Below are positions 5,048 to 45,961 of a stretch of DNA of 64,000 nucleotides, piece after piece. The notes beneath the pieces are model-generated. The model did no database searches and had not been told where the DNA came from. It saw only the letters and a program-made list of their open reading frames with translations. Every line of letters starts with the position of its first letter. The first letter of the stretch is position 1. The DNA lies in assembly GCA_963575745.1 (NCBI GenBank), contig CAUYUJ010022404.1:282001-346000 (forward strand). Direction: 5' to 3'. The position numbers and the translations under genes are program-made. This stretch comes from Prorocentrum cordatum (Eukaryota; Sar; Dinophyceae; Prorocentrales; Prorocentraceae).

Positions 5048-5093
5048 ATCAAGATAAGGGCGTCGTAGTGGTTACTGACGCAGCCCTCACCCC

Positions 5094-6111
5094 CAGGGGC
5101 GGCGAGGTCCCGCTCAGATCTGCGCGGTGCCTCGCTCCGCAGGACCCACCGGCAGCCTTCGAAAGTGGCGACGGTGTCGCAGATCGCAGCCCCCCAGAGA
5201 CGGCGAGGTCTCGCTCAGATCTGCGCGGTGCCTCACTCCGCAGGACCCACCAGCAGCCCTCGAACGAGGCGGCACTGTCGCAGATCGCAGCCCCCCAGGG
5301 GCGGCGAGGTCTCGCTCAGGTCCCCGCGGTGCCTCAGTCCGCAGAACCCCCCAGCAGCCTTCGAAAGTGGCGACGGTGTCGCAGATCGCAGCCCCCCAGG
5401 GACGGGGAGGTCTCGCCCAGGTCCCCGCGGTGCCTCAGTCAGCAAAACCCCCCAGCAGCCATCGAAAGTGGCGACGGTGTCATACATCGCAGCCCCCCTC
5501 AGGGACGGCGAGGTCTCGCTCAGATCTGCGCGGTGCCTCACTCCGCAGGACCTACCAGCAGCCGTCGAAAGTGGCGACAGTTTCGCAGATCGCAGCCCCC
5601 CAGGGACGGCGAGGTCTCGCTCAGATCTGCGCGGCGCCTCACTCCGCAGGACCCACCAGCAGCCCTCGAAAGTGGCGACAGTTTCGCAGATCGCAGCCCC
5701 CCAGGGACGGCGAGGTCTCGCTCAGATCTGCGCGGTGCCTCACTCCGCAGGACCCACCAGTAGCAATCGAAAGTGGCGACAGTGTCGCAGATCGCAGCCC
5801 CCCAGGGGCGGCGAGGTCTCGCTCAGATCCCCGCGGTGCCTCAGTCCGCAGGACCCACCAGCAGCCCTCGAAAGCGGCGACGGTGTCGCAGATCGCAGCC
5901 CTCCAGGGACGGCGAGGTCTCGCTCAGTTCCCCGCGGTGCCTCACTCCGCAGGACCCACCAGCAGCCCTCGAAAGTGGCGACAGTGTCGCAGATCGCAGC
6001 CCCCCAGGGACGGCGAGGTCTCGCTCAGATCTGCGCGGTCGGTGCCTCACTCCGCAGGACCCACCAGCAGCCCTCGAAAGTGGCGACAGTGCCGCAGATC
6101 GCAGCACCCCA
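5094..6111 (+). repeat. 101-bp satellite, block 1 (about 10 copies)
   Basis: Tandem copies of a unit containing GACGGCGAGGTCTCGCTCAG, CTCCGCAGGACCCACCAGC and 'GTGTCGCAGATCGCAGCC'. Successive GGCGAGGTC positions are 101 bases apart (for example 5199 and 5300). Because 101 is not a multiple of three, a reading frame rotates through three phases and stays open for hundreds of codons on both strands; these frames are a by-product of the array. Some copies carry 'GTCCCCGCGGTGCCTCA' in place of 'ATCTGCGCGGTGCCTCA', giving two subtypes. Confidence 0.93.
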
Positions 6112-6289
6112 TGCAAGATGCACACAAGAGGTACGGCATGCAAGCTGCACGCGTACATAACGCGGCACGCACAAGGCGAGATGCGACAAGAGGGAGGCGG
6201 GCGGGAGAAGACGCAGGAGGAGGAGGCGGAGGGACGCGACCACAGTGCTCTTTTTCAAAACGAATACCCAACCAAGGAGGGCTGGGATC
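6112..6289. other. Spacer with GGA run; paralogue of the LINE-1 right flank
   Basis: Non-satellite spacer ending in a short GGA run followed by GGGACGCGACCACA and 'AAAACGAATACCCAACCAAGG'-like sequence. The same succession, GGA run then GACGCGACCACA then the CGAATACCCAACCAAGG phrase, is found at 16908-17006 just after the first LINE. Here no LINE is present, so the site looks like an unoccupied paralogue of that locus. Confidence 0.65.
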
Positions 6290-6422
6290 TTACCCTGGCG
6301 ACGTACCCAACCCCTGCGCAATGCGGGGCATGAGTAGCTTGGGAGACGTTATACGGAGGTGATGACGTGTCATGGGCGCATATACTTCTGCGAGCGGCAT
6401 TCGTGAGGCTCGCGCCCCCCCA
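6290..6422 (+). repeat. Satellite leader sequence, copy 2
   Basis: Second copy of the leader at 4915-5047. It has the same TTACCCTGGCGACGTACCC start and the same GATGACGT core, and is again directly followed by 101-bp satellite units. Confidence 0.7.
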
Positions 6423-6423
6423 A

Positions 6424-7253
6424 GGATTGCGATTTCTCGCTCCGCTGAACCCGCCACCCGCCTTCGAAAGTTGCGGCGGTTTCGCAGGTCGCAACCCCCC
6501 AAGGACGGCGATGCCCCGCTCAGATCTGCGCGGCGCCTCACTCCGCAGGACCCACCAGCAGCCTTCGAAAGTGGCGACAGTGTGCATATTGCAGCCCCCC
6601 AGGGACGGCGAGGTCTTGCTCAGATGTGCGCTGTGCCTCACTCCGCACGACCCACCAGCAGCCTTCGAAAGTGGCGACAGCTTCGCAGATCGCAGCCCCT
6701 CAGGGACGGCGGGGTTTCGCTCAGATCTGCGCGGCGCCTCACTCCGCAGGGCCCACCAGCAGCCCCAAAAACAACCCTCGAACGTGGCGGCAGCGTCGCA
6801 GATCGCAGCCCCCCAGGGACGGCGAGGTTCCGCTCAGATTTGCGCAGTGCCTCACTCCGCTGGACCCGCCAGCAGCCTTCGAAAATGGCTACAGTTCCGC
6901 AGATCGCTATGCTAGCCCCCCAAGCAGCCTTCGAAAGTTGCGGCGGTCTCGCAGATCGCAGCCCCCCAAGCACGGCGAGGTCCCGCTCAGATCTGCGCGG
7001 CGCCTCACTCCGCAGGACCCACCAGCAGCCCACGAAAGTGGCGACGGTGTCGTAGATCGCAGCCCCCCAGGGACGGCGAGGTCTCGCTCAGATCTGCGCG
7101 GTGCCTCACTCCGCAGGACCCACCAGCAGCCCTCGAAACTGGCGGCAGCGTCGCAGATCGCAGCCCCCCAGAGACGGCGAGGTCTCGCTCAGGTCCTCGC
7201 GGTACCTCAGTCCGCAGGACCCACCGGCAGCCTCCGAAAGGGGCGGCAGTGTC
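6424..7253 (+). repeat. 101-bp satellite, block 2 (about 8 copies)
   Basis: Same satellite as block 1 but more diverged at its left end, where GGCGATTTCTCGCTCC-like variants occur. It includes a short insertion near 6765-6780 and a shortened unit near 6905. The block stops at 7253, where the sequence TTGGAATCCA begins. Confidence 0.9.
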
Positions 7254-7263
7254 TTGGAATCCA

Positions 7264-9157
7264 CTGCCCCTCTGTTATGAGGCCGTTGTATAGGAGAGGG
7301 AACAGAGGACAGAGTGTTTACACAGTTTTAAGGAATTAGTGAATTCAGCATGGGTCGGGCTTGAAGTGCCTCGAAGAAAGCGCGCGCACCCGAATCGCAG
7401 ACATATGGCTATATGCGGACCCGGGACACTTTGCTTCCCGTCGTCGTCCTCGCCCTTGCTCCGTTCCCCTTCCTTTCTTCCCTCCCCTGGATGGTGTCGA
7501 AAGCGTCCGCGGCTCGGGCGGGGGAGCGCCCCTTCCCACCTCCCTTATTATTCCTCGTTCCTCTTTGCCTCCTTGCTCCACCGTCCGTCGTCCTACCTCG
7601 TCCACCCTCCTTGTTCGAAAAGTGAAGTCCCTGGTGCCGCGTGCCCGCGTCAGCGGTAAATGCTTTTCCGATATCCTCGCACAGCGGCGCAACCAAACAG
7701 AGGGGATTGCCAATGCGAGAGTTCGGGGCGCACCCAAAATGCGGGCGGCACGGCCGCCGAGCACAGTCGCATCGCTAACATGTAAATTATAGGTGCCTGC
7801 GGCAAGGTCCGCCCCCCTGCCAGAGCAGTGGTCTATATGGCGACGCGTGGAGCTTTGACTGTTAAGAGGTCCATGACATGTGACATCTCTCGTGTTTTCG
7901 GACTGCCACGCGGCATTCTTTGGGGTCCTTCGAGGCCTTTTGGGGCGTCTTCGGGCCGTTGGGGGCCGCTTTGGCGCCGCGTTACACCGCGGCCGCCCTG
8001 GGCCAGGGAAGCGTGCATTTGCGGTTCTCTCCGGGGCGCCCTGGGCCGGGGAAGTGTGTATTTGCAGTCCCCCCCAGCTGGGCATGTCAACCTCGGTTCT
8101 GGGCTGGCAAAGTCGGGGCGCCCTCAAGGTGGCGAGCGTTTACCTTTTCGAAATACACAGATCAAGGTGTGATCTGTGTACACAGTTTGTGTCTTCAACT
8201 GTGTATTTTCGTGTGTGGGCCGACTGTTTACACAGATCGTGGTGTGATCTGTGTAGACAGATTTCGTTCCCATCTGTGTATTTGGAGTGTGTCCCTCGCG
8301 GGTGGTGTTGAATGGGCGGGAACTTTCGCGTTTCCCTTCCGGCTGGTCCAGGGGGGCGTCGTGCGCGGTCGAAATGCACAGTTCGTGTCTCCAACTGTGC
8401 ATTTGCTGCGCGCCGTTCGCTGGAGTGGTCTCTGGGCGGGAGTTTCCGCGGGTCTCCCGGCTGGTCCAGGAGGGGGCCGTGGTCTGGGCATGCAAAGGCG
8501 CGGGGGGGGTGGAGATGGTGGGCTGTGGGAAGGAAGGGGTTCGATAGGAGGGGTGGCCGAGGGGCCAAGGATGAACGGGACTGGACGAGAGCGGAAGAAA
8601 TGAGCCCAGGAGGATGTGGATCATCGGTGTCAGCATCGCGAGGGCGAGGGAGGTGGGGGAGGCAGAAGTTGGGGGCATGATGTGCACTAGGGCGTAGAGG
8701 ATTGGAGGAGGGCAGGCATGTGGACGATGGGGGAACGAATCCGGCGCAGGAAGACGACGAGGAACGACGTGAATTGGCACATGGGGGGTGAGCAATGTGG
8801 ATGAAGGGCACGATGGGGACCGGGGCGATCGGAGGGGCATGAGGAGGGTGGGGCCACAGCGAAAGGACATTTGGAAGAGGCGGGGGGTGGGGCATGAGTT
8901 CGAGGCGGGCGCCAGCTAACGATTAGCTGAACAGTGTTTTGCGTGTCCGTGCGCCCCCAGAACACAGTGACTTGTTGCAGAACTTCATGATCTGGGTAAT
9001 CGTGCGCTTCGTGCTTCAAGGCCAAAGGCTCGAGTCCGCGACGCCCCTTGGCGTCGCGATAATGCCGCCCCGATTTGCCAGACCGCATATGCACAGATAC
9101 GCAGAATATGTGTTGCAACGTTTGTGTCATGACCCTCTCTATACTAACAGACCCACG
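7264..9157. other. 1.9-kb non-satellite insert between satellite blocks
   Basis: Sequence interrupting the satellite. The 10-base word TTGGAATCCA is present on both sides (7254-7263 and 9158-9167), resembling a target-site duplication. The interior has pyrimidine-rich and purine-rich stretches and a cluster of short hairpins (8154-8403). The longest open frames (for example minus strand 7345-8127) have no recognisable domain, and I do not call a gene. If this is a mobile element, I cannot assign its class. Confidence 0.45.
8154..8403. repeat. Cluster of five short hairpins
   Basis: Five inverted repeats. 8154-8180 has arms TACACAGATC/GATCTGTGTA and a 7-base loop. 8179-8205 has arms TACACAGTT/AACTGTGTA and a 9-base loop. 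8229-8255 has the same arms as the first and a 7-base loop. 8254-8280 has arms TAGACAGAT/ATCTGTGTA. 8373-8403 has arms AATGCACAGTT/AACTGTGCATT. The first pair and second pair are a 75-base direct repeat, and neighbouring hairpins share their terminal TA. Function unknown. Confidence 0.8.
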
Positions 9158-9165
9158 TTGGAATC

Positions 9166-11067
9166 CAAGCAGTGTCGCAGATCGCAGCCCTCCAGGGGCG
9201 GCGAGGTCTCGCTCGGATCTGCGCGGTGCCTCACTCCGCAGCCCTCGAAAGCGGCGACAGTGTCGCAGATCGCGGCCCCCCAGGGACGGCGAGGTCTCGC
9301 TCAGGTCCCCGCGGTGCCTCACTCGAACGTGGCGACAGTGTCGCAGATCGCAGCCCGCCAGGGGCGGCGAGGCCTCGCTCAGATCTGCGCGGTGCTTCAT
9401 TCCGCAGGACCCACTAGCAGCCCTCGAAAGTTGCGACAGTTTCGCAGATCGAAGCCCCGCGAGGTCTCGCTCAGATCTGCGCTCACTCCGCAGGGCCCGC
9501 AAGCAGCCCTCGAAAGTGGCGACATTTTCGCAGATCGCAGCACCCCCAGGGACGGCGGGGTCCCGCTCAGATCTGCGCGGTGCCTCACTCCGCAGGACCC
9601 ACCAGCAGCCATCGAAAGTGGCGACCGTTTCGCAGATCGCAGCCCCCCAAGGGCGGCGAAGTCTCGCTCAGATCTGCGCGGTGCCTCACTCCGCAGGACC
9701 CACCAGCAGCCCTCGAAAGCGGCGACAGTTTCGCAGATCGCAGCCCCCCCAGGGACGGCGAGGTCTCGCTCAGGTCCCCGCGGTGCCTCACTCGAACGTG
9801 GCGACAGTGTCGCAGATCGCAGCCCCCCAGGGACGGCGAGGTCTCGCTCAGATCTGCGCGGTGCCTCACTCCGCAGGACCCACTAGCAGCCCTCGAAAAT
9901 GGCGACAGTTTCGCAGATCGCAGCCCCCCCCAGGGACGGCGATGTCTCGCTCAGATCTGCGCGACGCCTCACTCCGCAGGACCCACCAGCAGCCCTCGAA
10001 CGTGGCGACAGCTTCGCAGATCGCAGCCCCCCCAGGGACGGCGAGGTCTCGCTCAGATCTGCGCGGTGCCTCACTCCGCAGGACCCACCAGCAGCCCTCG
10101 AAAGTGGCGACCGTTTCGCAGATCGCAGCCCCAAGGACGGCGAGGTCTCGCTCAGATCTGCGCGTCGCCCCACTCCGCAGGACCCACCAGCCGCCCCCGA
10201 AAGTGGCGACAGTTTCGCAGATCGCAAGCCCTCGGAAGTGGCGACGGCGTCGCAGATCGCAGCCCACCAGGGACGGCGAGGTCTCGCCCAGGTCCCCGCG
10301 GTGCCTCATTCCGCAGGACCCACTAGCAGCCCTCGACAATGGCGACAGTTTCGCAGATCGCAGCCCCCCAGGGACGGCGAGGTCTCGCTCAGATAGATCT
10401 GCGCCGTGCCTCACTCCGCAGGACCCTCCAGCGGCCTTCGAAAGTTGCGACGGTTTCGCAGATCGCAGCCCCCCAGGGACGGCAATGTCTCGCTCAGATC
10501 TGCGCGGTGCCTCACTCCGCAGGGCCCACAAGCAGCCCTCGACAATGGCGACAGTGTCGCAGATCGCAGCCCCCCAGGGACGGCGAGGTCTCGCTCGGAT
10601 CTGAGCGGCGCCCCACCCCGCAGGACCCGCCAGCAGCCCTCGAAAGTGGCGACAGTTTCGCAGATCGCAGCCCCCCAGGGGCGGCGAGGTCTCGCTCAGA
10701 TCTGCGCGGTGCCTCACTCCGCAGGACCCACCAGCAGCCCTCGAAAGTGGCGACGGTGTCGCAGATCGCAGCCCCCCAGGGGCGGCGAGGTCTCGCTCAG
10801 GTCCCCGCGGTGCTTCATTCCGCAGGACCCACTAGCAGCCCTCGACACAGATCGCAGCCCCCCAGGGACGGCGAGGTCTCGCTCAGATAGATCTGCGCGG
10901 CGCCTCACCCCGCAGGACCCACCGGCAGCCATCGAAAGTTGCGACGGTTTCGCAGATCGCAGCCCCCCAGGGACGGCAATGTCTCGCTCAGATCTGCGCG
11001 GTGCCTCATTCCGCAGGACCCACCAGCAGCCCTCGAAAATGGCGACAGTTTCGCAGATCGCAGCTCC
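9166..11067 (+). repeat. 101-bp satellite, block 3 (about 19 copies)
   Basis: Longest block of the 101-bp satellite. Deleted units occur at 9235-9250, 9325, 9455-9480 and 10220-10240, where copies are joined at CTCGAA or GCAGATCGCA words. That pattern is expected from unequal exchange. The block ends in GCAGATCGCAGCTCCC at about 11067, much as block 1 ends at GCAGATCGCAGCACCC. All long frames here are array artefacts. Confidence 0.93.
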
Positions 11068-11109
11068 CATCGTTGTCGAAGAGAGGGCAGGAGAAGGCGG
11101 GGTGCGGAA

Positions 11110-11171
11110 GGGGGAGGAGGAGGAGGAGGAGGAGGAGGAGGAGGAGGAGGAGGAGGAGGAGGAGGAGGAGG
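11110..11171. repeat. GGA microsatellite at LINE-1 left border
   Basis: About 60 bases of GGA/GAG trinucleotide repeat, directly abutting the first base of the spliced-leader sequence at 11172. A second GGA run lies on the far side of the LINE at about 16908-16965. Confidence 0.9.
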
Positions 11172-11193
11172 TCCGTAGCCATTTTGGCTCAAG
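11172..11193 (+). other. Complete dinoflagellate spliced-leader sequence (DinoSL) in genomic DNA
   Basis: All 22 bases match the DinoSL consensus (begins TCCGTAGCC, ends GGCTCAAG). DinoSL is normally added to mRNA 5' ends by trans-splicing. Here it is embedded in genomic DNA at the left end of a LINE, with no sign of an SL RNA gene downstream (no splice donor GT follows AAG). The next bases, 11194-11201, repeat the first eight bases of the leader (TCCGTAGC), like a decayed second leader. This marks a retro-copied trans-spliced mRNA. Confidence 0.92.
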
Positions 11194-11317
11194 TCCGTAG
11201 CGTGTGGCCCATTGGCCTTGGGTTTGGTGCGAGGGGATTGCGGCCCTGAGTGCCTACATACACTGTATTGAGGTATCATCCTCACGTTTTGTCTTCTCGC
11301 AGTCGCTTCAGTCCCGC

Positions 11318-12223
11318 ATGGATTGTTGGTCTTGCCAGCATTCTCGCAAGTGTGGATATCGCTACAACTATGCGTGGCGCACCGCATGTCGGTTGTGCGG
11401 CACTCCTGCTCCTCGGCGGCCTGGTGGCGGGCCCTCTATGCAGCCGCGTGGTCAGTGGCGCAACGGGCCACCGCAGCTCACCCCGAAGCCGTCCGGGCCC
11501 AATCTCTCCGAGCAGCAGGTGCACCATTATGCTACCTTGGCCGAGGAGGCCTTTAACATTGTCAGTGAGGGATGGCACCCCGAAGCTAAGAGTCGTGTGC
11601 GAGCTGCGCGTGCAACCCTCATCGGGGAGCCGCGTGCAGCAGCCAAGGCCGCTCGGATTGGCAACGACGAGGCGCAGTCCCAGCTGCAGCAGGCGCAGAG
11701 CAAGCATGCTCGCGCCCTTGCTGGTCTTGCTGAGTCTCTTCGGGCCATGCAGGCTGCCAAGGATGAGCTCGCGAGGGCCACCCAGGCGGCTCAGGAGGCG
11801 GCCGCCGAGGCATCGCAGGCATTCCAGCCCATGGCGCCCACTCCTGCCGAGACCAAGTTCCAGGCGTGGGCCAAGTCGGTGCTCGTCGAGCCCAGTGATG
11901 ACGACCCCGACTCTCGTCGCAAGTTCAACGAGCTCAAGGGCCAGCTCGAGGACATGGCTGCGGAGATGGGCTACGCTCTGGTTCCTCCTCCGCCTGCACC
12001 TCCTGCTGAGCGGGCTGGCGCTGCGGACCCCGCCGAGGATCAAGGAGGGATCGAGCAGCCTGTGCCCGTCGACATGGATCTCGATGCGCTCATCGGTGAC
12101 CCAGATTTCCTGGCCAGTATCGAGACCCAGCATGGAGTCAAACACGAGGCTACTGTTGGGATGTTGCAGGCCGCCAAGGCACACCTCTCCAAGAAGGCCA
12201 AGGGCGCTGACGGAGGCGCTTAG
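11318..12223 (+). CDS. LINE-1 ORF1: zinc-finger and coiled-coil RNA-binding protein
   Basis: Intact frame of about 301 residues from the ATG at 11318. The frame is open upstream to 11204, but MDCWSC gives the natural start for the finger. The N-terminus has a RanBP2-like zinc-finger pattern: a Trp, a CxxxxxxC-type pair and then CRLCG, with Arg and Asn spaced between (W-x-C ... N ... C-x-x-C-G). A Pro/Arg linker follows, then an Ala/Gln/Glu-rich helical region at about residues 110-200 that looks like a coiled coil, and an acidic tail. LINE ORF1 proteins generally bind element RNA. The frame overlaps the start of the endonuclease frame, so ORF2 would need reinitiation or frameshifting. Assignment is by architecture and position. 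Confidence 0.7.
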   Translation: MDCWSCQHSRKCGYRYNYAWRTACRLCGTPAPRRPGGGPSMQPRGQWRNGPPQLTPKPSGPNLSEQQVHHYATLAEEAFNIVSEGWHPEAKSRVRAARATLIGEPRAAAKAARIGNDEAQSQLQQAQSKHARALAGLAESLRAMQAAKDELARATQAAQEAAAEASQAFQPMAPTPAETKFQAWAKSVLVEPSDDDPDSRRKFNELKGQLEDMAAEMGYALVPPPPAPPAERAGAADPAEDQGGIEQPVPVDMDLDALIGDPDFLASIETQHGVKHEATVGMLQAAKAHLSKKAKGADGGA

Positions 12224-13108
12224 CCAGGCTCAGGTTCGGCCGCTCCCTCCACCGCTGGGGGGTAGCACCTTCGAGATCATCTCCTCGAGCGTGTCTGGTC
12301 TTGCGGGTTTAGATGAATTGGTGGCTGATCCGTCTGCTCGCAAGTGCCGGGCTGTTTGCTTTCAAGAACATCACCAGATTTCCGCTACAAGTCCCGAACA
12401 CAGGTTGCGTAAGGCAGCATGGAATGCCAAAGTTTCGCCGGCCATTGTCTCTGCTTCAGGTAAAGGTGTTACTGGAGGAGTGGATCTGATGGTGGCTGGA
12501 TGTGGTATGAGCGAAGTTGAGACGGTCGACACCGTTCTAGTACCTGGGCGCGTCACGGTTGTTCACGTCGGCGGTTTGTGCCCAGGGGGTTTCTCTACCT
12601 CCACCACAGTGTTGGGCTAGTAGCAGCAGCAAACTGGTCCCTGCTGTGTCAAGTTCGAGAAGTTATCAAATCGTTCCGCATGCCTTTCGTCATTCAATGT
12701 GAATGGCAGATTCCTCCAGATCAGTTGCAAGGCAGTCTATGGGTCGAGAGCATCGATGCCGTGATTGCCGCCCCGTCCATTCCCACCTGCTCCTCTGCGA
12801 ATGGTGGTAGAACGATTGACTATTTCGTGATTCGCACTCGCCTGCAGTTTGGGAGTTCAGTCGATGTATTAAGTAACGTCGCCACCGAACCCCACGAACC
12901 TGTACGGCTCAAGCTTCATTCTTCGAGCAGCGTGCCTCTGGTTGCTCAAGTGCGTGTTCCTCGGAGATTTCCGCATGTGCGACCTGCGGGATGCCTGCGT
13001 CGCGACTGGGGTCCTAGAGTGGGAGCAGCTTCGCCAAGAGAATGCAAATTGCTCTGTGCAGCATCAGCGGGAATCCTTCGCCACGATGGTCGAGCAACAG
13101 TTTCTTGA
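12219..13108 (+). pseudogene. LINE-1 ORF2 part 1: EEP endonuclease, frameshifted
   Basis: Endonuclease/exonuclease/phosphatase domain that would nick target DNA. The first half runs in one frame to about 12620 and includes CFQEHH, the metal-binding Glu motif of the family, and a GVTGGVDLMV strand. A single frame change near 12585-12595 leads to the second half (12578-13108), with RTIDYFVI, equivalent to the IDY strand. The usual C-terminal SDH is represented by PHEPV, so the catalytic His site may be lost. A further frame change near 12940 leads into the linker frame. Non-functional as written. Confidence 0.7.
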
Positions 13109-13790
13109 CCTGTGCCAGATTGACGACAAGGACGCATCCAAGTGCATTGGGCGTGCTGGGGAGCTACAGGTGGATCAGGTTCGTGCTCGCGCTCCTCAGC
13201 GGCTTCTTTTTCCTCGCTTGAGCCCTATCGCCGTCTGGTGGCGAAGGGCAGGCCACGCCTTGCGTTGCCATTCTTTTTGGCACTCCAGCATGCAGCGCAG
13301 CAGTGCCCTTGCCTGTTGCAAGCGGCTGTTGCGCGAAGCCAAGCTGCCTCCCTTGGTGAGCGTTGTTGGGCGCGAGGGAGGTTGGGTTCGCGTGCTCCGC
13401 GACGCGCCTGTCCTGTGCTACGGCGTGGCGGCTGCCCTGTCGTCTGCTGCGCGCGTCAGGGCCAGCTCTGGGCATCGCGAGGCCCTGTCAGTTAAGTCGT
13501 CAGAGTGGCGTCAGTGGGTTCGTGATCATTCGGTCGACGGCGCTGCCGCGTTGTTCGCTTCGACGAGACCGCACGCCCCTTGGCGCGCCACGCCCCGCTC
13601 CAAGGAAGATGGCGCGCTCGTTCCTGCTCCAGCCAGTCTGCAACAGGAGATGGGCATGCTTGCTGACGAATGGTGCAAATGGCGGCGCATAGGCGAGCCC
13701 CGCGACGAGTTCGAGCGGCCCAGTGATTTAGGCCCCCCTTTTTTCCAGCGCCCTCTGTCGAAGAGATGCGCAAGGTCCCCCGCTCCTTTC
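12942..13790 (+). pseudogene. LINE-1 ORF2 linker between endonuclease and RT
   Basis: Open frame joining the endonuclease to the reverse transcriptase. It contains a helical, Gln/Glu-containing start, a Trp/Arg-rich middle and a 'FASTRPHAPWRA' block. No catalytic motif. It belongs to the element by position and by continuity with the flanking domains. Frame is lost near 13780, where the RT frame takes over. Confidence 0.6.
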
Positions 13791-15139
13791 CTCCTCGGGC
13801 CGGGTGCGGGTTCGACGCGCTCTCGCCTCGACAGCTGGATCATCTTCCAGATGAGGCCATCAGGGTCCTCACCCAGCTGGTTATGGATGTCGAAGCCACC
13901 TGTGAGTGGCCCCTCGTCCACACGAGGATCGTTTTCCTTTTGAAGAGGACGGGGGGTTTGCGGTCAATAGGGTTGCGATTTTGTGCCGCCAGGATCCAGG
14001 GGCGTTTCCGACGTTACCTGGTGCGCTCCTGGCAGGGTTCGAACTTCAGGTCCTTCTGGTGGGCCACGGCTGGGCGCTGCTCAGATATATTGGTTTGGGT
14101 TCAGTCGGCCATGACGGAATGGTGCCAGGGGCGCGGTTTTTCCAGTGTTCTCGCCCTGCTCGACCTTGAAAAGGCATTCGAGCAGATCTCCCATCACAGG
14201 TTGCTTCAGGCCGCAGTGGCCTCGCAATTTCCACTTCGGCAGCTGAAACTGCTCATCACTCTGTATCGTGCCCCTCGCATCTTGGACCTCGATCGTCGAG
14301 CCTCGCAAGTCATCCACTCGCTTCAGTCTGTGGCCCCTGGATGTCATTTCGCCACGCTCATGTTGCAGCCCGCGCTGCTCCAATCGCTGGATGCGGTTGC
14401 TTCATCCTTTCGCACGGTGCATCTAGGCGTGGTCGTTGATGACTTCGGGCTCCACGCCTACGGGCGCGAGTCGCATGTGATGGACAATTTCACAGGCGCC
14501 ACGCTGAGATTGCATCATGAGCTCGAGCGTGAGGATTTGCGCATCAAGCAAAGCAAGAGCAGAGTTGTCGCCTCCTCCCCCGACCTCCTCGCCCGCATTC
14601 AGGCCAGACGGCGGAAATTGTCAGTCAAAGGAGTGCGGCACGAGCGCAACCTTGGCATTGATTATTCAGGAGGTCGAGTTGCTGCCAGGACCGTCAGACG
14701 CGAGCGTTTTGCCCCTGCCCGGCAGCGCCGCAAAAAGTTGATTTCTCTTGGTAAGCAGCTCAAGCGTAAGCAGGCACATCACATGGTGCAGGCCGCCGTC
14801 ATGTCCTCCACCTCCTATGGGCACAAGGTCCTCGGCACAAACAATGGAGAGCTGCGTGAGGCTAGGCATCTGCAGGCGCAAGTTGAAGCCACGCGTGTGC
14901 ACGGCAGATCGGTTTCTCTCATGTTGCAAATGTCTCAGGTTGATCGTGCCGATCCTGCGTATCGTTTGAACAAGGGCCCCTGCTGGCCCTGGCCTCGGCT
15001 GTTTGGGGCCCCTGGCTTCCCGTCTCGGTCCTTCGGAGTGGACCTGATGACGCTTGGAAGCGCCTGTGCGATAACGGGCCCCCCTGGTAAAGCATCCGAG
15101 GCCCTTTCTCAGCGCGTGCAGCCGCAGCGCTACGATTAG
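13766..15139 (+). CDS. LINE-1 reverse transcriptase domain (457-codon open frame)
   Basis: RNA-directed DNA polymerase of a non-LTR element. Counting from the first codon at 13766: FLLKRTGGLRSIGL (residues 57-70) is the fingers block; LLDLEKAFEQIS (131-142) is motif A with Asp133; SVAPGCHFATLML (188-200) sits at motif B; VVVDDFGLHA (222-231) is motif C with the Asp pair 225-226. The thumb and a basic C-terminal region follow. The frame is open to 15139, long enough for the full RT, but its start is an artefact of an upstream frame change. RNase H follows in a different frame. Confidence 0.85.
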   Translation: MRKVPRSFPPRAGCGFDALSPRQLDHLPDEAIRVLTQLVMDVEATCEWPLVHTRIVFLLKRTGGLRSIGLRFCAARIQGRFRRYLVRSWQGSNFRSFWWATAGRCSDILVWVQSAMTEWCQGRGFSSVLALLDLEKAFEQISHHRLLQAAVASQFPLRQLKLLITLYRAPRILDLDRRASQVIHSLQSVAPGCHFATLMLQPALLQSLDAVASSFRTVHLGVVVDDFGLHAYGRESHVMDNFTGATLRLHHELEREDLRIKQSKSRVVASSPDLLARIQARRRKLSVKGVRHERNLGIDYSGGRVAARTVRRERFAPARQRRKKLISLGKQLKRKQAHHMVQAAVMSSTSYGHKVLGTNNGELREARHLQAQVEATRVHGRSVSLMLQMSQVDRADPAYRLNKGPCWPWPRLFGAPGFPSRSFGVDLMTLGSACAITGPPGKASEALSQRVQPQRYD

Positions 15140-15174
15140 GCATCAAGTTTCAGGGACTCCAGTGGACGCACCCT

Positions 15175-16122
15175 TTGATCGGAACCTTTTCTCCCTTCGA
15201 CCCCTCTCCTCGGACCCTCGGGTTGGTTTTGGATCGGGTGGTGGGCGGGTGGATTTGGAACGGGGTTGCTGACCGCTTGGAGCTTCCCGAGGCTCGCGGG
15301 GGCTTGCTTTTGCATCCTATCAAGCAGGTCATTCGCAGTAAGAAGTGCTCGGCTCAAGGGGCCGCATACTTGAGGGGCGTTGTCGCGGGCGGTCAGGGGC
15401 CCCAACGGCGCCAGCATGACGCCAATCTCTCGTCTGAGTTTCTGTGTCGCGCCTGCCTCAGCGCTCCAAGCACGCTGTCGCACAGGCATCTCTCTTGTGG
15501 CTTCACCGAGGAGGTAGTCGAAGCTTCCCCGCCGCCCTTTTTGGCGAGGCTCGCTGCTGCTTGCGTCGATCCTCTTGCCCTCCTCCTCGCTGAGAGGCTG
15601 CTCGTGCCGCTTGCTCCTTCCCCCCCCCCCCCCCCCCCCCCCCCCCTCGGGCCTCCTGGGCCCTGGCTCTTGGGGCATGGGGCCCTGCGGGGCCATGTCT
15701 TCCTGGGCGGGGGCCGGAGGGGCTGCGAGTTTGAGGTTGCGCACCGCGGCCTGGGATGGTCGCGTGTCCAAGTGTCTGAGCAGCCGTTTCGGGCCGAGGT
15801 AATCTATGCTGGCTCTTTCGAGCATCCCGCCGTTGACATCGACGCTCTCGGGTTGCTGGCGCTCTATCGTGCGCTCTGCGCTTCTTTGCCTGGCACCATC
15901 TTTTATAGTGACTCCAGCTTCGTGGTGGATGGGGTCCTGGAGAGAGGCCCTGTCAAGTGCTGTTCTGCGAAATGCAGTTGGGCCGAGCTTTGGCGCATGG
16001 TGTGGCGCAAAATCGACGACTGGGGTGGTGTGAGTGGGTTGGGCGGGCTTGTGCAAGTTAAGGGCCACGCCACTCGCGCCTCGGTCGTCTGCGATGCCTC
16101 TGCCTTCCAAGGCAGGCAATGA
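15175..16122 (+). pseudogene. LINE-1 zinc motif and first part of RNase H
   Basis: Frame of 315 codons. Residues 91-109 carry CRAC followed by HRHLSC, a CCHH-type zinc motif usual near LINE C-termini. A poly-Pro stretch encoded by a poly(C) run at 15620-15646 precedes the RNase H. Visible RNase H elements are DIDALGLLALYRAL (helix with Asp in place of the usual Glu), IFYSDSSFVVDG (catalytic Asp at about 246) and VKGHATR (His at about 298). The first catalytic Asp strand reads VFLGGG, so that residue seems lost. The frame stops just after GHATR, and the domain continues in the next frame. Confidence 0.72.
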
Positions 16123-16720
16123 CCTTGCAGATGAATATGCCAAGCAGGCCTCGGCTTTCTCTCGTCTACCGCTCGAGCTGCGTGAGCAGCGCGAGCAGAA
16201 GGCAGGTGTACTTCGGTCGTTCGCTGCCTGGGTGGCTCGTGTTGGACCAGCCCTGATTGCCTCCGACGCGCTTCATGTCTGCGAGGACCAGCGCAAGCGT
16301 GCGGCGAAACCCCGCGCCCCGACGCTGCAGGTCCTCTCACCCGAGCCGCCCTGCACCCCGCGTGTCCTGAGGAGCGCTGATGCGACCACTGTTCGCATCG
16401 CCCTCGCGGGCCAGAGAATCCATGTTGTCCGCCCCTTCCAGCTCGCGGAGACGAGCAAGTGGGGGGTCGGCTGCGCCGTGTGCGGTGCTGCGGGCCTTGG
16501 CTCGCCGCCTGCGCTATCTTCCCCGTGCCCAGGTCAGCCAGCACCGCTCTCGTGGGGTGCTCGGGTGCTGGCTAACTTGGCACGAGGAAGGTACCAGGTG
16601 AATAAGAAGTGGTTTACACTTGTCCAGCCTTGGCGCACCGCCGAGCTGGTGCGCGCTGGCGAGACTTCGTCGTCTCGTTCGCATCCAGCGGTGGTGTTTG
16701 ACCCTGCTGGCCGTGTTTGA
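16085..16720 (+). pseudogene. LINE-1 RNase H C-terminal part and tail
   Basis: Continuation of the RNase H domain after a frame change near 16090. It opens with 'GNDLADEYAKQAS', the conserved N-x-x-AD helix carrying the last catalytic Asp. A C-terminal extension follows with 'CAVCGAAG', possibly a last zinc-binding pair. The frame ends at the TGA at 16718-16720. About 180 bases of 3' untranslated sequence separate it from the GGA run. Confidence 0.7.
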
Positions 16721-16907
16721 CCCTGCTGGCCAGTCTGGTGAGGCTGGTTGACCTGTCCCGACAGGCTGTGGCACGCGGTCTGTCCTCGTGGCGCGTGTGT
16801 CATGGCTCGGGGGGGCAGGACTGCCTGCTTCACTTCGCCCGTCGTGCCATCCGCCGTGGGCTTTTAAGGTAGGGCGCTCAGGATAACCTGTGCGCCAGGC
16901 TGCGTCG

Positions 16908-17006
16908 AGGAGGAGGAGGAGGAGGAGGAGGGGGAGGATGATGATGAGGAGGAGGGACGCGACCACACTGTTCTATTCAAAACGAATACCCAACCAAGGA
17001 GGGCTG
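16908..17006. repeat. GGA run and right flank of LINE-1
   Basis: A GGA trinucleotide run with GAT variants (16908-16965), then GGGACGCGACCACA and a segment containing CGAATACCCAACCAAGG. The succession is repeated at about 6195-6285 where no LINE is present. Confidence 0.75.
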
Positions 17007-40129: not shown

Positions 40130-40151
40130 GCCGTAGCCATGTTGGCTCAAG
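40130..40151 (+). other. Spliced-leader sequence with one mismatch in genomic DNA
   Basis: Matches DinoSL at 21 of 22 positions (GCCGTAGCCAT at the start, GGCTCAAG at the end). The only change is a T to G in the run of four Ts. It heads the second LINE, as the perfect copy at 11172 heads the first. Confidence 0.88.
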
Positions 40152-40439
40152 CTCTTCGAGTTCCCGGCGGTAGCCAAGGTCTCCTTGCGGGGGCCTTGGG
40201 CGCCGCTGGGGACTCCTTGGTGGCCCCCCCCCGCCGCGCCCCACCCGCCCTTGGCCGCGCCCGTCCATCTCTCTCCTCTCGGGCCTCGGCACCCTCGCGA
40301 TAGCGGCGGCTGCTGGCGCCTGGCGGCTGGCATCTTCTCTGCTGGGTGAATTGTTGGCAGGCCTATTACAGATATCTTGTGGCTAGCTGGCACACTGTAT
40401 TCCAGTTTTTCTCTTGGGGCTGCTTTGTTGTTTTGTTGA

Positions 40440-41726
40440 TTTGTAATCACGGCTGTTATCTCAGAAGACGACTGGGACTTTGAAGGCTGGGACGAGATCC
40501 CCGAACATACGACACAGGACGAACGTGCTCTATTCTCGGCGTTGGAGGCTTCGAAAGCAGGACGTATCGCATATTCGATGTCGACAGACCCTTCTTCTGC
40601 GGGCCATCCACCACAACTTGTGATGCACCATGGCCCTGCTCATTCCTTTGCATCTGCTGCTGCCGCTTGTGCTGATGTCTCTATGAAGCAGATCAGTGAG
40701 AGGGACGAGGTGGGGGATGCTTCCAGGTCTTCCAAGATGGCTCGTGCTGGGATGGGTGGTAAGGGCGCTTCAGATGACAAAGAACCTGTCACTATTGGTC
40801 TATAGCGTAATGAGTTCCAGAATTTGGCAGATATGCTCAAATGTACTCTGACGGAACATAAGGAGGAGGTGAGGAAGGAGATCCAGCAGGAGGTTGCACC
40901 CTTGAAGTCGGACCTTGAACAACTTAAGGAGGTGGTGAGGCAGCAGTAGCAGCAGCAGGAGGCGGTGAATGCTCAGGTTCAGAAGCAGGGGAATGATGGT
41001 GCGGCCAGTGAGGCTGCCTCTGTATCTACTCGGGTGAGTCTTGGAGGCAATGCAGGCCCTAGGAACACACCCCCATTTGTCCCTGGATACTTGACGCTCT
41101 CGGGCTGGACTTCGGGAGACCCTCGAGATGTCCAGGCTCGTACGAGTAACATCATGTCTGAGGCCAGGGCCACCAGAGTTATCCAGATTCTCTTGGATGA
41201 AGTTGGCTCGCAGTTTGAGGTGAATGCGAAGATCTTTGATCGTGAGGCCATTAAGAGAGAGTACCAGGGCAAGCCGCTCGGTGTCTTTAGGCTGCGTATT
41301 TTCTTCGTACACGGCACGAGTAAGGATACTGTCTGGAAGGTCAGGGAGGAGTTCTGGAAGGCTATCTCCTCGCGCACGGGTTCTCTTTGGAAAGATGATT
41401 CTCTTCTTGCAGCTACCCAGTCGTACATCGGCATTCGTGCGCAGTGTGAGCCTTGGCGTGAGGGACAGGTGAGTGCTGGCAGTGAACTTACAGCTGCATA
41501 CTTTCGTGTAAGGAACCCGCTGAAGAAAAACAATCGTGTACGTATTCAGTATGGGTATCCTGTGATGTCTTGGGCTTGGGGCTATCCTGAAACCGGTGGG
41601 CAGATCTGTTTGGGTACTTGGGACCCCAGGCATGGTTGGACTCTGAGGCCAGAATCGGTGATTGAGTTCGATGACAAGATCCTTCCTGGGCCCTGGCAGA
41701 CGCTGCTGAATGGGGGCTCTGTGTGA
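40440..41726 (+). pseudogene. LINE-2 ORF1, interrupted by two TAG codons
   Basis: A single frame runs from about 40440 to the TGA at 41724-41726, broken only by TAG at 40803-40805 and 40947-40949. The second TAG lies inside a run of CAG codons (VRQQ-stop-QQQEA), so a C to T change is the simplest cause. The N-terminus is acidic (SEDDWDFEGWDEIPE). Residues from about 40810-40950 form a charged coiled coil (EVRKEIQQEVAPLKSDLEQL). The C-terminal region (41060-41720) is a globular domain with 'GVFRLRIFFVHG' and a Trp-rich end, plausibly RNA-binding. No ATG is visible before 40578. Confidence 0.65.
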
Positions 41727-43493
41727 CGACGTACTCGCCCGCTGAGGGCGGCCAGTTGGAACGTCAGAATTATGAGTGATGCTACTGCTCTATCTGCTCT
41801 TCCTTACTTGCGTGAGCTTGGAGTGCAACTCGTCGGGCTCCAGGAGTGCCAGTTCCTCAGACGAGATACGTTGAATGAGGCTGGTTTCCACTATCGCTGC
41901 TCGGCTGAGGTGAAGCTTGACAGTGGCTCGATGGAGGGCCAAGCAGGTGTAGTATTCTCGTCTACTCTCAACTCCTGTTTCTTGGGGCACGCTGTTGGTA
42001 GAAGATTTGCGGTCTGTGCCTTCCGTGGGCCAGAAGTGGGCGCATTCATCGATGCAAGCGTGTATCTTCCTCAGCAAGGCTTCTTTGGGACAACGTCTGA
42101 GGGGTACCAGGCCACGTTCCATCTGTGCCAGAACGTTCTTCTTGAATTATCGAGCGTTGTGGTGCGCATGCGTCAAACGTACAGTATCCGTGACGTTGTT
42201 GTTTGTGCCGACGCCAATGTTGAAGTGCAGCCTCATGTTGAGATCGATCGACTCCGTATCTCTGGTGGTGGTGTGAATGTGCGCACTGTGAGGGAGGAGG
42301 AGGGCTTTGGCAGGAAGGCGTTGCAGGGTGCATGTGCGCGTGCCTGGTGTGTCTGCATGGCCCAGCTACGTCTGAAGCTGATCAACACATTCATGGATCG
42401 TGAGTTTACCTGGTGTGGTGGAGGTGCTAGGACAAAACACGTAATTGATTATGTTGCGTGCCCTGTGACTTGGGAGACTCATGTTATGTGTTCGAAGTTG
42501 CACGTTATGTATGCGCATCCTCCTGGCTCTCGGGACACGGAATGGAGTGACCACAAGATGATATGTTTTGATCTCCCTTGTTTGGTGCAGGGAAAGTCCT
42601 CTGGTAGGACGAAGGCCACTGGCAGTCGATCGTTCGCTTCGTGGTTTGTGCAGGAGGGTAAGGAGGTGAAACAGTGCAGAGAGTTCGATATGGCTGTAAC
42701 GCAGTTTGCTGGGTGGAAATCTGGAGGGGGGAGCGGCCAAAATAACAAACGCAAAAATCAGTACTGCACGGAGGGGTCTGAGGGAAGGGTGATTTGGCAT
42801 ACTAGGTGGAGGTCTATTTCTCTAGCCGACCTGGAATCACGATTGAAGGAGGGGGCTGTTGCCGATAAGCGCTGTTATGGCTTTAAATCGGCTTCACTCG
42901 TCCCGAAGTTGACCCAGGAGGAAGCTCAGGTGAAAGAGGCCCACTACAGGGTTCACAAACTCTGGAAATCTGGTCAGATCGATGAGGCCACGTTCAAGGA
43001 TAGTCGTCGTCGTTGGAATCGTGTTCGAAGGCAGTTCAAGAAACGTCTACTTCTTTATCGTTATCGGGATGGGGTCAAGACTAAGACTGTTACTAACTCT
43101 ATGATGATCGACGGGGAATGGTGTGAAGACCGCAGTAAGTGGAATGAGGATATGACGAGGGTGGTCAGGGCTAAGTACTCTAAGTCGGAACGTCTTGCTA
43201 TGAACTTGGCGACTCTGGAGCAGCTTCGGGTTCAAGCTGATGAGGCACGTGCGTGCAGCACTCACACTTCTTCTCCTATTACCATGCATGTTCTCTGTCG
43301 TGCTCGTTCGAGGCTTCGTGAAGGCAAGGCTGTAGGTGCTGACGGTATCAGTGCACGCATGTTACGTTCTTTGTCCTGGGAAGCCCTACGTGTGGTGTTA
43401 GACTGCTTCCAGCGACGCTTCTGGCGAATGGCAGAGGCACCTGAGTCTTGGAAGTTCATTCGTGCAGAAGAACGGAAGGGAAAAGAGGTTTGA
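41727..43493 (+). CDS. LINE-2 ORF2: EEP endonuclease and start of reverse transcriptase
   Basis: Open for about 588 codons in the same frame as ORF1, separated from it by one TGA. RAASWNVR directly after the TGA is the usual EEP first strand. Counting from the ATG at 41772: LQE (Glu25), 'VVVCADANVEV' (Asp147 and Asn149), HVIDYV (Asp226) and EWSDHKM (Asp260-His261) are the family's metal and catalytic residues, all present. A basic linker follows, then the RT N-terminal block with 'GKAVGADGISARML'. Coding is lost after PESWKFI, where RT continues in another frame. The endonuclease looks intact. Confidence 0.85.
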   Translation, partial: RRTRPLRAASWNVRIMSDATALSALPYLRELGVQLVGLQECQFLRRDTLNEAGFHYRCSAEVKLDSGSMEGQAGVVFSSTLNSCFLGHAVGRRFAVCAFRGPEVGAFIDASVYLPQQGFFGTTSEGYQATFHLCQNVLLELSSVVVRMRQTYSIRDVVVCADANVEVQPHVEIDRLRISGGGVNVRTVREEEGFGRKALQGACARAWCVCMAQLRLKLINTFMDREFTWCGGGARTKHVIDYVACPVTWETHVMCSKLHVMYAHPPGSRDTEWSDHKMICFDLPCLVQGKSSGRTKATGSRSFASWFVQEGKEVKQCREFDMAVTQFAGWKSGGGSGQNNKRKNQYCTEGSEGRVIWHTRWRSISLADLESRLKEGAVADKRCYGFKSASLVPKLTQEEAQVKEAHYRVHKLWKSGQIDEATFKDSRRRWNRVRRQFKKRLLLYRYRDGVKTKTVTNSMMIDGEWCEDRSKWNEDMTRVVRAKYSKSERLAMNLATLEQLRVQADEARACSTHTSSPITMHVLCRARSRLREGKAVGADGISARMLRSLSWEALRVVLDCFQRRFWRMAEAPESWKFIRAEERKGKEV

Positions 43494-44424
43494 TGACAGT
43501 CGTACTCTTGCTGTGAATTCTGTCGTTAACACATGGTATATGGGCTGCTGGTGTATTCTGCTCAATTTGCACTTGGTGTCTATTGCTCCTGTTGTTGCTC
43601 CGTCTCTGTGCTTGTATGGTTTCCAGCAAGGTCGTAAGACACATGAGGTGACGTCGGGATTGAAGGCGATGTGTAGACATGCCAGGTTGTGGGGGAAGGA
43701 TGAGAATCTTGTTTTTGCTTCCTTGGACGTTGCCACTGCATTTGATTCGCTCACTGTCCAAGTTGCTTCTTCTACGCTTGAGCGTTTGTGTGTTGATGTG
43801 GAGCTTCGGTATGGTCTTATTGAGAACTCTGTCGGTAATGAGGCGGTCTTTCAATTTGAGGGTGTCTGCACTGATACGCTCCCTTGGACAACGTGTGTGA
43901 AGACAGGTTCCAAGGAAGGACCTCACCTGTGGACTGCTCAATCATTGGTCATGTTTGGTGATATTACTTCTGCTTGGGCGAGAGATGCTGTCGGTGTTGA
44001 ACTCTCTAGTGAGGCGGGAGGTATTGTTGTGCGTCACTTCATATGGGCGGACAACGTGCTTCTTACGGCTCCTGATCGCCCCACACTGGCTAATGTGATT
44101 TTACAGTCGACGTGGGCTCTCCACGATCATGGCTTTCGTTGGAAGCAGAGCAGTCTTGAGTTCATGGATGTGGGAACTACCACCGGTGTGACGGAGCCTC
44201 TCATGGTGACGTTGTTCCCGCCAGGTATGTCCAGGGGGCCCAATGTGTCTCTCCCTGAGAGTATTACCATTCCGCAGGTGGATGAGATTATTGTGCTCGG
44301 GACTATGATTGCGAGGAAGTTCAAGGATCATGATGATGTGCGATATCGTATGGGAAAAGCTGTTCGTGCTTTCTGGAATGATCGTGCGTTTTACACCTCC
44401 AGGAGAATTGCTTGGAAAAAATAA
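43462..44424 (+). pseudogene. LINE-2 reverse transcriptase core, motif C reads WADN
   Basis: Continuation of RT after a frame change near 43470. Counting from 43462: GFQQGRKTHEVT (53-64) and SLDVATAFDSL (87-97, motif A with Asp89 and Asp95); VKTGSKEGPHLWT (146-158) at motif B; FIWADNVLLTAP (193-204) at motif C. The usual second Asp of the ADD box is Asn here. ASN at this site also occurs in some other RTs, so it may be a lineage trait and not damage. The thumb region continues to 44424, where the frame changes again. Confidence 0.82.
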
Positions 44425-45391
44425 ATTTAGGCGATATGAATCGAGAGTGAGATCTAAGTTTCTTTTCGGCTTGGAAGGAGCCACGGTTGACAGTTCTACG
44501 ATTGCATTCATACATAAGGAGGATGGGAAGATGTTGAGCAGGATGACGTGGAGAGCAAAGAGGGAGGAGGAGGGGTGGGCTGCATTCATGTCGCGCATGC
44601 ACAGAAGAGGGAGGCAAGCTTTATGTGAAGCTGGCAGACCTCCGCTCGCACAAGTCTTCTTGTATCGGCAGTGGAGATGGGCGAAGGATATTGCATTGTC
44701 TTGTTTTGGCAGAGGCGGTGGTGGCGTGGGGGAGGTATCTGTGGTGGGTGGCTCGCAGTTGGTGCCGTCTCCTTTGTATGCTCCTGGTGCTTCTGCTGAT
44801 AATACGACGCCCTCCGAGCCCATGAACCGACGGAAAAGAAAGACGATGTGCATGAATGAGGCCAAACGTCAGAGGACCCAACTTTCACAGAATACGGCGA
44901 GGCTCAGAGACAGGTTCGAGGACCCAACCCGTTATTACAATCAGCCTACGGTGGTGGACACTGGCACTGCTGTCATTGGCTACCTGCAGGCACGACTGTC
45001 CATGTTGCACGGTGGAGGGGAGTGGGAATCCAGGCGGGATGATCTGGTATTATCTCTAGGAAGCCAGGCTGGACGTGCTGGGACTCTTGCGAGGACTGGC
45101 CGAGTTCCTATCGGCATGCGCCCGTGGAGAACACCTTTTGAGCTCGTGGGAGGGAAATACTGGTACCATGTTCTGGAATGGACGGAGGAGGCCTGGGTCA
45201 AGTTTGCTCGCGAAGTTTTTACGCTTCTCCAGGTTCCTGGTGTTTCTGATTTCCTGGTTCTTAAAGATCATATTCCTTGGAAGCCTATGGAGGAGAGGGA
45301 GGAGGAGGTACTTTCGGAGGAGCTCAGCAGGAAGAAGGAGGAGGTGTTGTCCAAACGGTATACTAAGATATTTGAGGATTACACGGAGTGA
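44309..45391 (+). pseudogene. LINE-2 region between RT and RNase H
   Basis: Frame carrying the RT thumb from about 44410 (KNKFRRYESRVRSKFLFGLE) and then 'EEEGWAAFMSRMHRRGRQAL', typical of the connection region of such elements. A basic RRKRKTMCMNEAKRQR stretch at about 44830-44875 could be a nuclear-localisation signal. A Glu/Lys-rich helix precedes the TGA at 45389-45391. Sequence beyond the TGA stays in the same frame and is clearly RNase H, so the TGA is either a lesion or read through. Confidence 0.65.
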
Positions 45392-45961
45392 GAGTTCCAG
45401 GCGGGAAGGCTTGCCGTTGAACTGAACGGAGACTCTCAATGTGTTGTGCGGTGGACCCAAGGCTTGTATTTTACTGCGAATGTGCATTATGACAAGATTG
45501 TGGGCGGTATTCAGAATACTTTAGACACTCTAGCTAAGAGATGTGGTGTGCAGGCGGCCTCTCTTGGGAGACATATCTTCAAGTGGGTGTACAGGGAGGA
45601 CAATACTGCTGCGGATGAGTTAACACACAGAGCTCGACAGGGAATTTGTAGAACACGTTTTAGGCATGATTTCCTATCCCATGTTAAAGCTAACGCTATT
45701 CTGATCGACGCTATTCGGGGAAGCTTCGATGGTGGAAGATCCTATCTGGGCGTAGGCTGTGGCTGGCAGATTGATTTCCATTTGTGCTCCTCTTCTGTTG
45801 CTGATTATCCTGTCACTCTCCCGAGTGGCGTGTGGGAGCCCAACGTGGCTTCATCCTCTTTCCTCCTTCCTCCCTCGAGCACTATCACTGCAGCTGAGTT
45901 AGAGTCTGCCCGACAACTCCTTTTGGGAGTGGAGGAATGCCTGCGTTTGGCAGGATGCTAG
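45392..45961 (+). CDS. LINE-2 RNase H with halves in permuted order
   Basis: RNase H would remove RNA template after reverse transcription. Conserved blocks appear in the order ELNGDSQCVV (the third catalytic Asp strand), 'REDNTAADELTHRA' (the last Asp helix), then 'IRGSFDGGRSYLGVGCGW' (first catalytic Asp strand) and TAAELESARQLL (the Glu helix). In ordinary RNase H the last two come first. The frame is uninterrupted from 45392 to the stop at 45959-45961, so all four residues are in one polypeptide, which looks circularly permuted. No initiator lies at the start, since the domain belongs to ORF2 upstream of the TGA. Confidence 0.72.
   Translation, partial: EFQAGRLAVELNGDSQCVVRWTQGLYFTANVHYDKIVGGIQNTLDTLAKRCGVQAASLGRHIFKWVYREDNTAADELTHRARQGICRTRFRHDFLSHVKANAILIDAIRGSFDGGRSYLGVGCGWQIDFHLCSSSVADYPVTLPSGVWEPNVASSSFLLPPSSTITAAELESARQLLLGVEECLRLAGC

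Follow-up and report, generated by a model that had tools for sequence, protein, structure and literature searches.

LINE A, a retrotransposon of the dinoflagellate Prorocentrum cordatum, appears to have as its genomic 5′ terminus the 22-nt spliced-leader exon of its host (DinoSL), a start found again in nearly all of its relatives. We consider it highly probable that RNA of such elements is trans-spliced, reverse-transcribed as far as the leader and inserted into microsatellites, spliced-leader splicing renewing the 5′ end at each cycle. LINE A lies in a window of 64 kb (the whole stretch of DNA that was analysed) that also contains a second leader-bearing element, LINE B. The genome searched was the window's own (4.13 Gb, 21,875 contigs), in which the window occupies 282001-346000 of contig C21555.

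The leader and the body of LINE A

The 21 invariant bases of the leader are present at the start of LINE A with zero mismatches. The AGG repeat that forms its 5′ target flank stops at 11171, one base before the leader, so that a first-pass annotation of this DNA was right to let the leader abut a GGA microsatellite, as it was in seeing the leader restart in the next eight bases. This 8-mer, TCCGTAGC, occurs in the window at positions 11172 and 11194 only, both strands having been searched. Chance is excluded as the origin of the leader pair: when the window was shuffled 100 times with dinucleotides preserved, two leader matches never occurred, even with up to three mismatches, and the reversed leader pattern had no match in the 4.13 Gb, against 24,192 for the leader itself (at most one mismatch). 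The latter figure corresponds to 0.375 leaders per 64 kb, so that finding two in the window is not striking in itself (P = 0.055). Immediately 5′ of the microsatellite of LINE A, the window is occupied by 101-bp tandem satellite arrays (5090-11068).

LINE A is about 5.7 kb long, from the leader at 11172 to a conserved 3′ end at 16906, an end point that recurs in L092, L094, L095 and L096. The first-pass annotation had taken it for an otherwise complete, full-length LINE; this holds for its extent, from leader to conserved 3′ end with a GAG repeat beyond, but not for its coding frames, which are broken and split over three phases (Table 1). Domain assignments come in part from another locus of the genome, L027. 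Residues 341-455 of the first frame match L027 at 2237-2593 (tblastn), approximately residues 420-538 of its protein, which overlap the Exo_endo_phos match of L027 at 437-629, while the stretch of L027 aligned with the RNase H region overlaps an RNase_H match (1e-7). With a reverse transcriptase (RT), an endonuclease upstream of it and no LTR, LINE A is, as far as homology allows one to classify it, a non-LTR retrotransposon (LINE) with an APE-type endonuclease. Direct repeats of at least 25 bases (seed 12) formed no family across LINE A or across LINE B with their flanks, so that nothing suggests an LTR element. The presence of microsatellite on both sides of LINE A hides any target-site duplication. 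A PDB sequence search with the RT of LINE A gave no match, nor did Rfam in the window at the gathering threshold.

Table 1. Positions of the leaders, repeats and coding frames of LINE A and LINE B in the window
Feature	Position	Strand	Remarks
(GGA)n microsatellite, 5′ target flank of LINE A	11109-11171	+	Last base adjoins the leader
Perfect 22-nt DinoSL	11172-11193	+	First bases of LINE A; TCCGTAGCCATTTTGGCTCAAG
Putative decayed relict of a second leader	11194-11215	+	TCCGTAGC and a diverged remainder; common to relatives of LINE A
Stop-to-stop frame, N-terminal ORF into start of endonuclease	11250-12617	+	No Pfam match of its own
Endonuclease region continued in another frame	12521-13105	+	tblastn to L027, L010, L015, L018, L021, L026; no Pfam match of its own
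Reverse transcriptase frame of LINE A	13727-15136	+	RVT_1 5.2e-6, 26.7 bits, under the 29.6 cut-off
RNase H region	15091-16119	+	tblastn homology to L027 6362-7402; no Pfam match of its own
Last frame of LINE A	16034-16717	+	No significant domain
(GAG)n, 3′ flank of LINE A	16907-16955	+	Directly after the conserved 3′ end, without poly(A)
Second leader of the window	40130-40151	+	GCCGTAGCCATGTTGGCTCAAG; one mismatch, first base G; upstream of LINE B; no microsatellite flank
Open frame of LINE B preceding the RT	41727-43490	+	No significant domain
LINE B reverse transcriptase	43402-44421	+	RVT_1 1.9e-5, 24.9 bits, under cut-off

The leader of LINE B, an element in the region 40130-46000, had escaped the first-pass annotation. 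Matched at 40131-40151 and placed some 3.3 kb upstream of the RT, it is a single case, known from the window copy alone. The RT of LINE B gives no BLASTP alignment with that of LINE A, and a target-site duplication of 8-14 bases was sought around LINE B and not found.

A fresh leader followed by decaying ones

The family of LINE A was gathered independently of the leader, the query (LINE A 11202-12000) starting past both the leader and the eight restart bases. It had 35 matches at 32 places, window included, and 5′ ends were taken at all 31 other places. At 30 of these a DinoSL (at most two mismatches) stands directly before the aligned 5′ end. The leader is therefore not placed at random with respect to the element, and the proposal that it is the exact 5′ end of the LINE stands. 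The only place without it, L099, starts slightly further in, beside GGA-rich DNA, and looks 5′-truncated. Together with the window this makes 31 leader-bearing copies, 22 of them with a perfect leader, five with one mismatch and four with two (13 mismatches in 651 bases).

The DNA that precedes the leader is simple. Purines make up at least 90% of its last 30 bases in all but one of the 31 copies (minimum 80%), mostly as GGA, and GAGG is the commonest ending (13/31). Beyond the simple repeat, BLASTN of 248-259 flanking bases in the 31 copies found no shared, conserved sequence upstream of the leader, with two exceptions. L048 and L049 are identical over 252 flank bases and are thus one duplicated insertion, which leaves 30 of the 31 copies (29 besides the window) independent by their flanks; L046 shares with these two a 63-base stretch (89%), far upstream. 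These counts describe one genome, and the one family that was searched without conditioning on the leader.

The first leader is the best preserved part of the 5′ end. When copies are compared in pairs, its mean identity in successive bands is 0.926, 0.942, 0.966, 0.977, 0.971 and 0.995, and that of the following 170 bases in the same bands is 0.473, 0.55, 0.656, 0.735, 0.868 and 0.963. Behind it lies the relict of a second leader, with band means of 0.69-0.975 where the rest has 0.505-0.978 (20 copies and the window). This old leader, recognised by pattern in 30 of the 31 copies (not in L098), directly follows the new one in 21; in seven an extra G separates them, and in one a T. The 31 copies include a single one with three leaders, L036, in which the leader is followed by a 15-nt relict, CCATTTTGGCTCAAG, and then by the old leader. 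L036 is also the only copy of the family with a relict cut after base 7, at an AG; outside it, comparison of the related L015 with L026 reveals a relict cut at the same internal AG of the leader, after base 7.

How much of a leader the relict retains was scored in nine sequences, the remainder past the first eight bases being compared with the leader against 2000 shuffles. The score was reached by no shuffle for L037 and L026, by 9 for L038, 14 for L039, 32 for L025, 39 for L030, 155 for L029, 458 for the window copy and 986 for L042. The window copy alone thus shows no whole second leader; its relatives do. What had been described as an 8-base partial piece is, when read from the alignment of the relatives, a shared, decaying full-length relict, of which TCCGTAGC would be the remnant in the window. 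The suspicion that integration had occurred perhaps twice gains from the decayed second leader of the family and from the three leaders of L036. The companion idea, that each cycle could add a leader, fares less well, most cycles seeming to replace it instead. A similar series occurs outside these copies: L024 displays three leaders behind a GGA repeat (perfect, 15-nt relict, decayed whole), with no RT found downstream.

The spacer G deserves a comment. It is expected of trans-splicing at the last AG of the flank, GGAGG/TCCG. Another possible source is a cap-templated base added by the reverse transcriptase. Whether the G came from splice or from cap, a splice in the flank would be needed, and hence an RNA transcribed from upstream of the element.

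Leaders, LINEs and microsatellites across the genome

How general this arrangement is was examined on the first 61 perfect leaders in contig order, chosen regardless of content; 21 of these sites are in 20 stretches of 8.8-9.9 kb and 40 in stretches of 401 bases. A same-strand RT follows the leader in 14 of the 20 long loci (L010, L012, L014-L019, L021-L023, L025-L027), and 16 further sites share a homologous 5′ end with RT-bearing loci, bringing the number to 30 of 61, of which 16 are assigned by 5′ homology alone. One of these 16, L013, has no RT in its 9.9-kb stretch, so that 5′ homology is no guarantee of an RT. The other 31 leaders fall outside LINE assignment. Perfect sites only entered the 61, which excludes leaders with one or two mismatches in L025 and L020, and a weak opposite-strand RT match in L029 (6e-4) was not counted. 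The conjecture that the pattern might be general is thus largely borne out.

The reverse transcriptases form two groups that BLASTP does not connect at 1e-3, that of LINE B making a third. A profile grown from L014 reaches members of group I, for example LINE A at 1e-37, so that groups I and II are distant relatives, and both show the same 5′ architecture. The coding capacity of some of these elements is better preserved than that of LINE A. In L027 a frame of 2,786 codons, already open inside the leader, comprises endonuclease and RT (both below cut-off) and RNase H; L014 and L019 each have one long frame that likewise takes in part of the leader and encodes endonuclease and RT, with no RNase H detected. 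RVT_1 is above its cut-off in L014 (58.2 bits) and L019 (34.8 bits), and Exo_endo_phos is above its own (24.5 bits) in L014, L017 and L019, below it in L023, L025 and L027. An ATG directly follows the leader at 10 of the 61 sites; in the families concerned the leader by itself would form the 5′ UTR. A protein search with the endonuclease-RT of L014 had two matches, both with P. cordatum as source name and one also labelled Polarella glacialis, which is too few to name a LINE clade.

Three further observations may be added. The 5′ ends of L010 and of L016/L017, the RTs of which belong to different groups, are 71-78% identical over 82-90 bases, and an exchange of 5′ modules between LINE lineages is possible. 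Three leaders about 3-5 kb apart on one contig (C39; L084-L086), with near-identical bases on both sides, would represent a leader-bearing unit in tandem repeat, with no link to LINEs by the present tests. Finally, a 7.2-kb contig filed as viral (L001, IMGVR_UViG_3300045993_001077) carries perfect DinoSLs on its minus strand at 2746-2766 and 2893-2913, 147 bases apart, next to a frame of 975 amino acids matching glycosyltransferase family 41; this suggests capture or mimicry of trans-spliced mRNA.

The preference for microsatellites, though strong, has exceptions, and only some families favour one strand. At the 0.75 threshold, 37 of the 61 sites follow (TCC)n (26) or (GGA)n (11), against a background of 3.4% at positions sampled in the long stretches. 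The same repeat in the same orientation is found at the apparent 3′ end of 14 of the 20 long loci and of LINE A, these 3′ ends having been placed by inspection. Of 3′ stretches taken from seven further members of LINE A's family, three ended short of the element's end and were dropped; the four that reach it stop at one point, ...GCTGCGTC (GCAGCGTC in L096), without poly(A), and are followed by GGA-rich DNA in L094, L095 and L096 and by a short purine stretch only in L092. As for orientation, the flank is purine in all 31 copies of LINE A's family, TCC in 8/8 of family F1 and pyrimidine in 3/3 of F5 (F6, 2/2). F2 is mixed (one GGA, three TCC, one neither), and sites within the GGA/TCC repeat number 1/4 in F3 and 0/4 in F4. 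L029 sits behind TCC although its 5′ end aligns with LINE A's family.

Some details of these sites may be placed on record. A family made of L019 (with endonuclease and RT), L059, L068 and L089 reads leader, GCC or GCA, then ATG, and has varied flanks (TA, CAGACA, others) that are not TCC/GGA. In L016, which has leaders at 1022 and 6877, the second begins where the TCC repeat bounding the first LINE's apparent 3′ end stops, as if two insertions had entered one microsatellite. Ahead of the repeat, the 3′ ends of the TCC family (L014, L025, L016) carry CAAGGTTACGTTCG or CAAGGTACGTTCA; this 3′ motif is conserved and presumably resembles the exon/intron junction of an SL RNA.

Routes to a leader-first LINE

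What the DNA displays is an exact leader exon in first place, one fresh leader, older ones in decay, junctions at AG sites and, mostly, microsatellite on both sides. The cycle that would account for it has three steps. A copy lying within (GGA)n or (TCC)n would be transcribed from outside. Its RNA would then undergo trans-splicing, as a rule at the terminal AG of the leader encoded in the DNA, whereby the same leader would be regenerated exactly; occasional use of the leader's internal AG would leave a 15-nt relict, and occasional splicing at a flanking AG would keep the complete old leader behind the new one. Finally, at another microsatellite, reverse transcription of the spliced RNA would run as far as the first base of the leader, presumably as target-primed reverse transcription to the cap. 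The junctions expected of the last two steps are those found in the genome. If the final AG of the leader is the usual acceptor, this would explain why most cycles replace the leader rather than add one. The first-pass annotation had proposed that the LINE's own mRNA was trans-spliced, reverse-transcribed and integrated; leader position and flank tests support this, and the RNA steps are what we infer from them. Purine tracts, behind which LINE A's family lies, are poor polypyrimidine tracts, so that efficient trans-splicing there is not obvious. An explanation of all insertions by the polypyrimidine tract was dropped as the main reading on account of this family.

The alternative that survives best is that the leader is fixed, inherited LINE DNA, selected as a promoter or as a splice site and never re-added by trans-splicing. 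Selection could in principle explain its conservation, which is high before the same 5′ end at 30 of 31 other places, and a promoter role of the DinoSL in retrogenes has been proposed (PMC6050394). We find this account unlikely, because relict leaders decay just one step downstream, because the number of leaders and their junctions vary among relatives at AG sites, and because simple inheritance would not be expected to place a G between the new leader and the old one.

A template jump, in which the LINE enzyme, on reaching the end of its own RNA during target-primed reverse transcription, would continue on SL RNA or another leader-bearing mRNA, has in its favour that LINE reverse transcriptases are known to jump between templates. 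It is nevertheless very improbable here, since in the copies inspected nothing but the 22-nt exon lies ahead of the element or its relict leader, neither an SL intron nor a piece of another mRNA intervening, and since the junctions sit at AG acceptors.

An ordinary host retrogene with its relict leader, next to which a LINE would lie by chance, is the textbook situation for relict leaders at genes (PMC3229502), and we give it practically no credit: the alignment of copies, which places the same junction before homologous LINE 5′ ends at 30 of 31 places, refutes it for LINE A's family. Equally negligible is an element inserting into SL RNA genes in the manner of SLACS, CZAR or NeSL-1, to which a LINE adjoining SL sequence might make one think; it is refuted for this family by the flanks, in which no SL intron was seen among the copies but GGA/TCC microsatellite, by a leader that is the element's own start, and by the GGA-rich stretch at the 3′ end too.

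The preferred reading, trans-splicing of the LINE's own RNA, has precedents that overlap it in part. SLACS, CZAR and NeSL-1 are LINEs that insert into SL RNA genes; they share with the P. cordatum elements an association with spliced-leader sequence, but the latter themselves begin with the leader and mostly lie in microsatellites. A close parallel is the mRNA recycling of dinoflagellates recognised by Slamovits and Keeling, namely retrogenes with relict DinoSL, as described in PMC3229502 and PMC12014239. Common to both are a DNA-encoded 5′ leader, a 15-nt relict cut at the internal AG and the decay of older leaders. Here, by contrast, the recycled RNA is that of the LINE itself, a likely source of the enzyme, with 31 leader-bearing copies in one family and a microsatellite target, and the usual relict in LINE A's family is a whole old leader. 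For host genes it has been suggested that the leader preserves itself in a similar way, by means of its two AGs (PMC3229502). Of 26 RdRp ORFs of endogenised dinoRNAVs, 6 have a leader no more than 500 bp away, which was interpreted as retroposition, perhaps aided by LINEs (PMC10235124); that leader marks a passenger RNA, whereas the LINEs described here begin with it themselves.

Other hosts and elements differ further. In Hydra about 30% of the Iso-Seq reads of transposable elements carry a 5′ SL (PMC12220107), which is a matter of RNA, a genomic leader as element terminus not being mentioned in the passage concerned. The trypanosomatid L1Tc has its own Pr77 promoter, an HDV-like ribozyme and unspliced transcripts (PMC8190864). 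L1Tc/ingi, like the elements described here, is a LINE in a host with SL trans-splicing and has to separate its 5′ end from co-transcripts; the difference is that here the leader exon is the terminus. Among dinoflagellate LINEs, SymbioLINE-Dnmt has a DNA methyltransferase as ORF1 (PMC5890265), and the main text of that article contains no instance of 'spliced leader' and one of 'trans-splic', in the discussion. RT-containing genes or LINEs are also mentioned in dinoflagellate genome papers (PMC8045281, PMC7245778, PMC11453091). No statement that LINEs have the leader as their genomic 5′ terminus was found among the titles, abstract openings and passages listed for the open-access literature.

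A 2018 review considered the type of element mediating mRNA recycling as unknown and leaned to LTR elements (PMC6050394). Here a LINE family bears the mark of recycling at its own first base, as do sampled LINEs of two RT groups, and since LINEs bear it themselves, the process can be tested directly as to source, splice sites and insertion target. The counts of DinoSL used to number retrogenes may, for their part, include many LINE 5′ ends. With respect to LINE biology, a 5′ end spliced by the host and rebuilt at each cycle would be one answer to the problem of keeping that end complete, and one answer to that of freeing LINE RNA from neighbouring transcripts. Taken jointly, and with somewhat less than even confidence, we would tentatively picture elements that have handed their 5′ end over to the host and need neither promoter nor 5′ UTR of their own. 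They would home to triplet microsatellites; for families that target (TCC)n, this polypyrimidine tract and the AG of the leader would make a ready trans-splice acceptor wherever they insert, so that splicing would rescue their RNA from read-through. The same machinery, acting on host mRNAs, would drive recycling, and many of the DinoSLs taken as marks of retrogenes would be the 5′ ends of LINEs.
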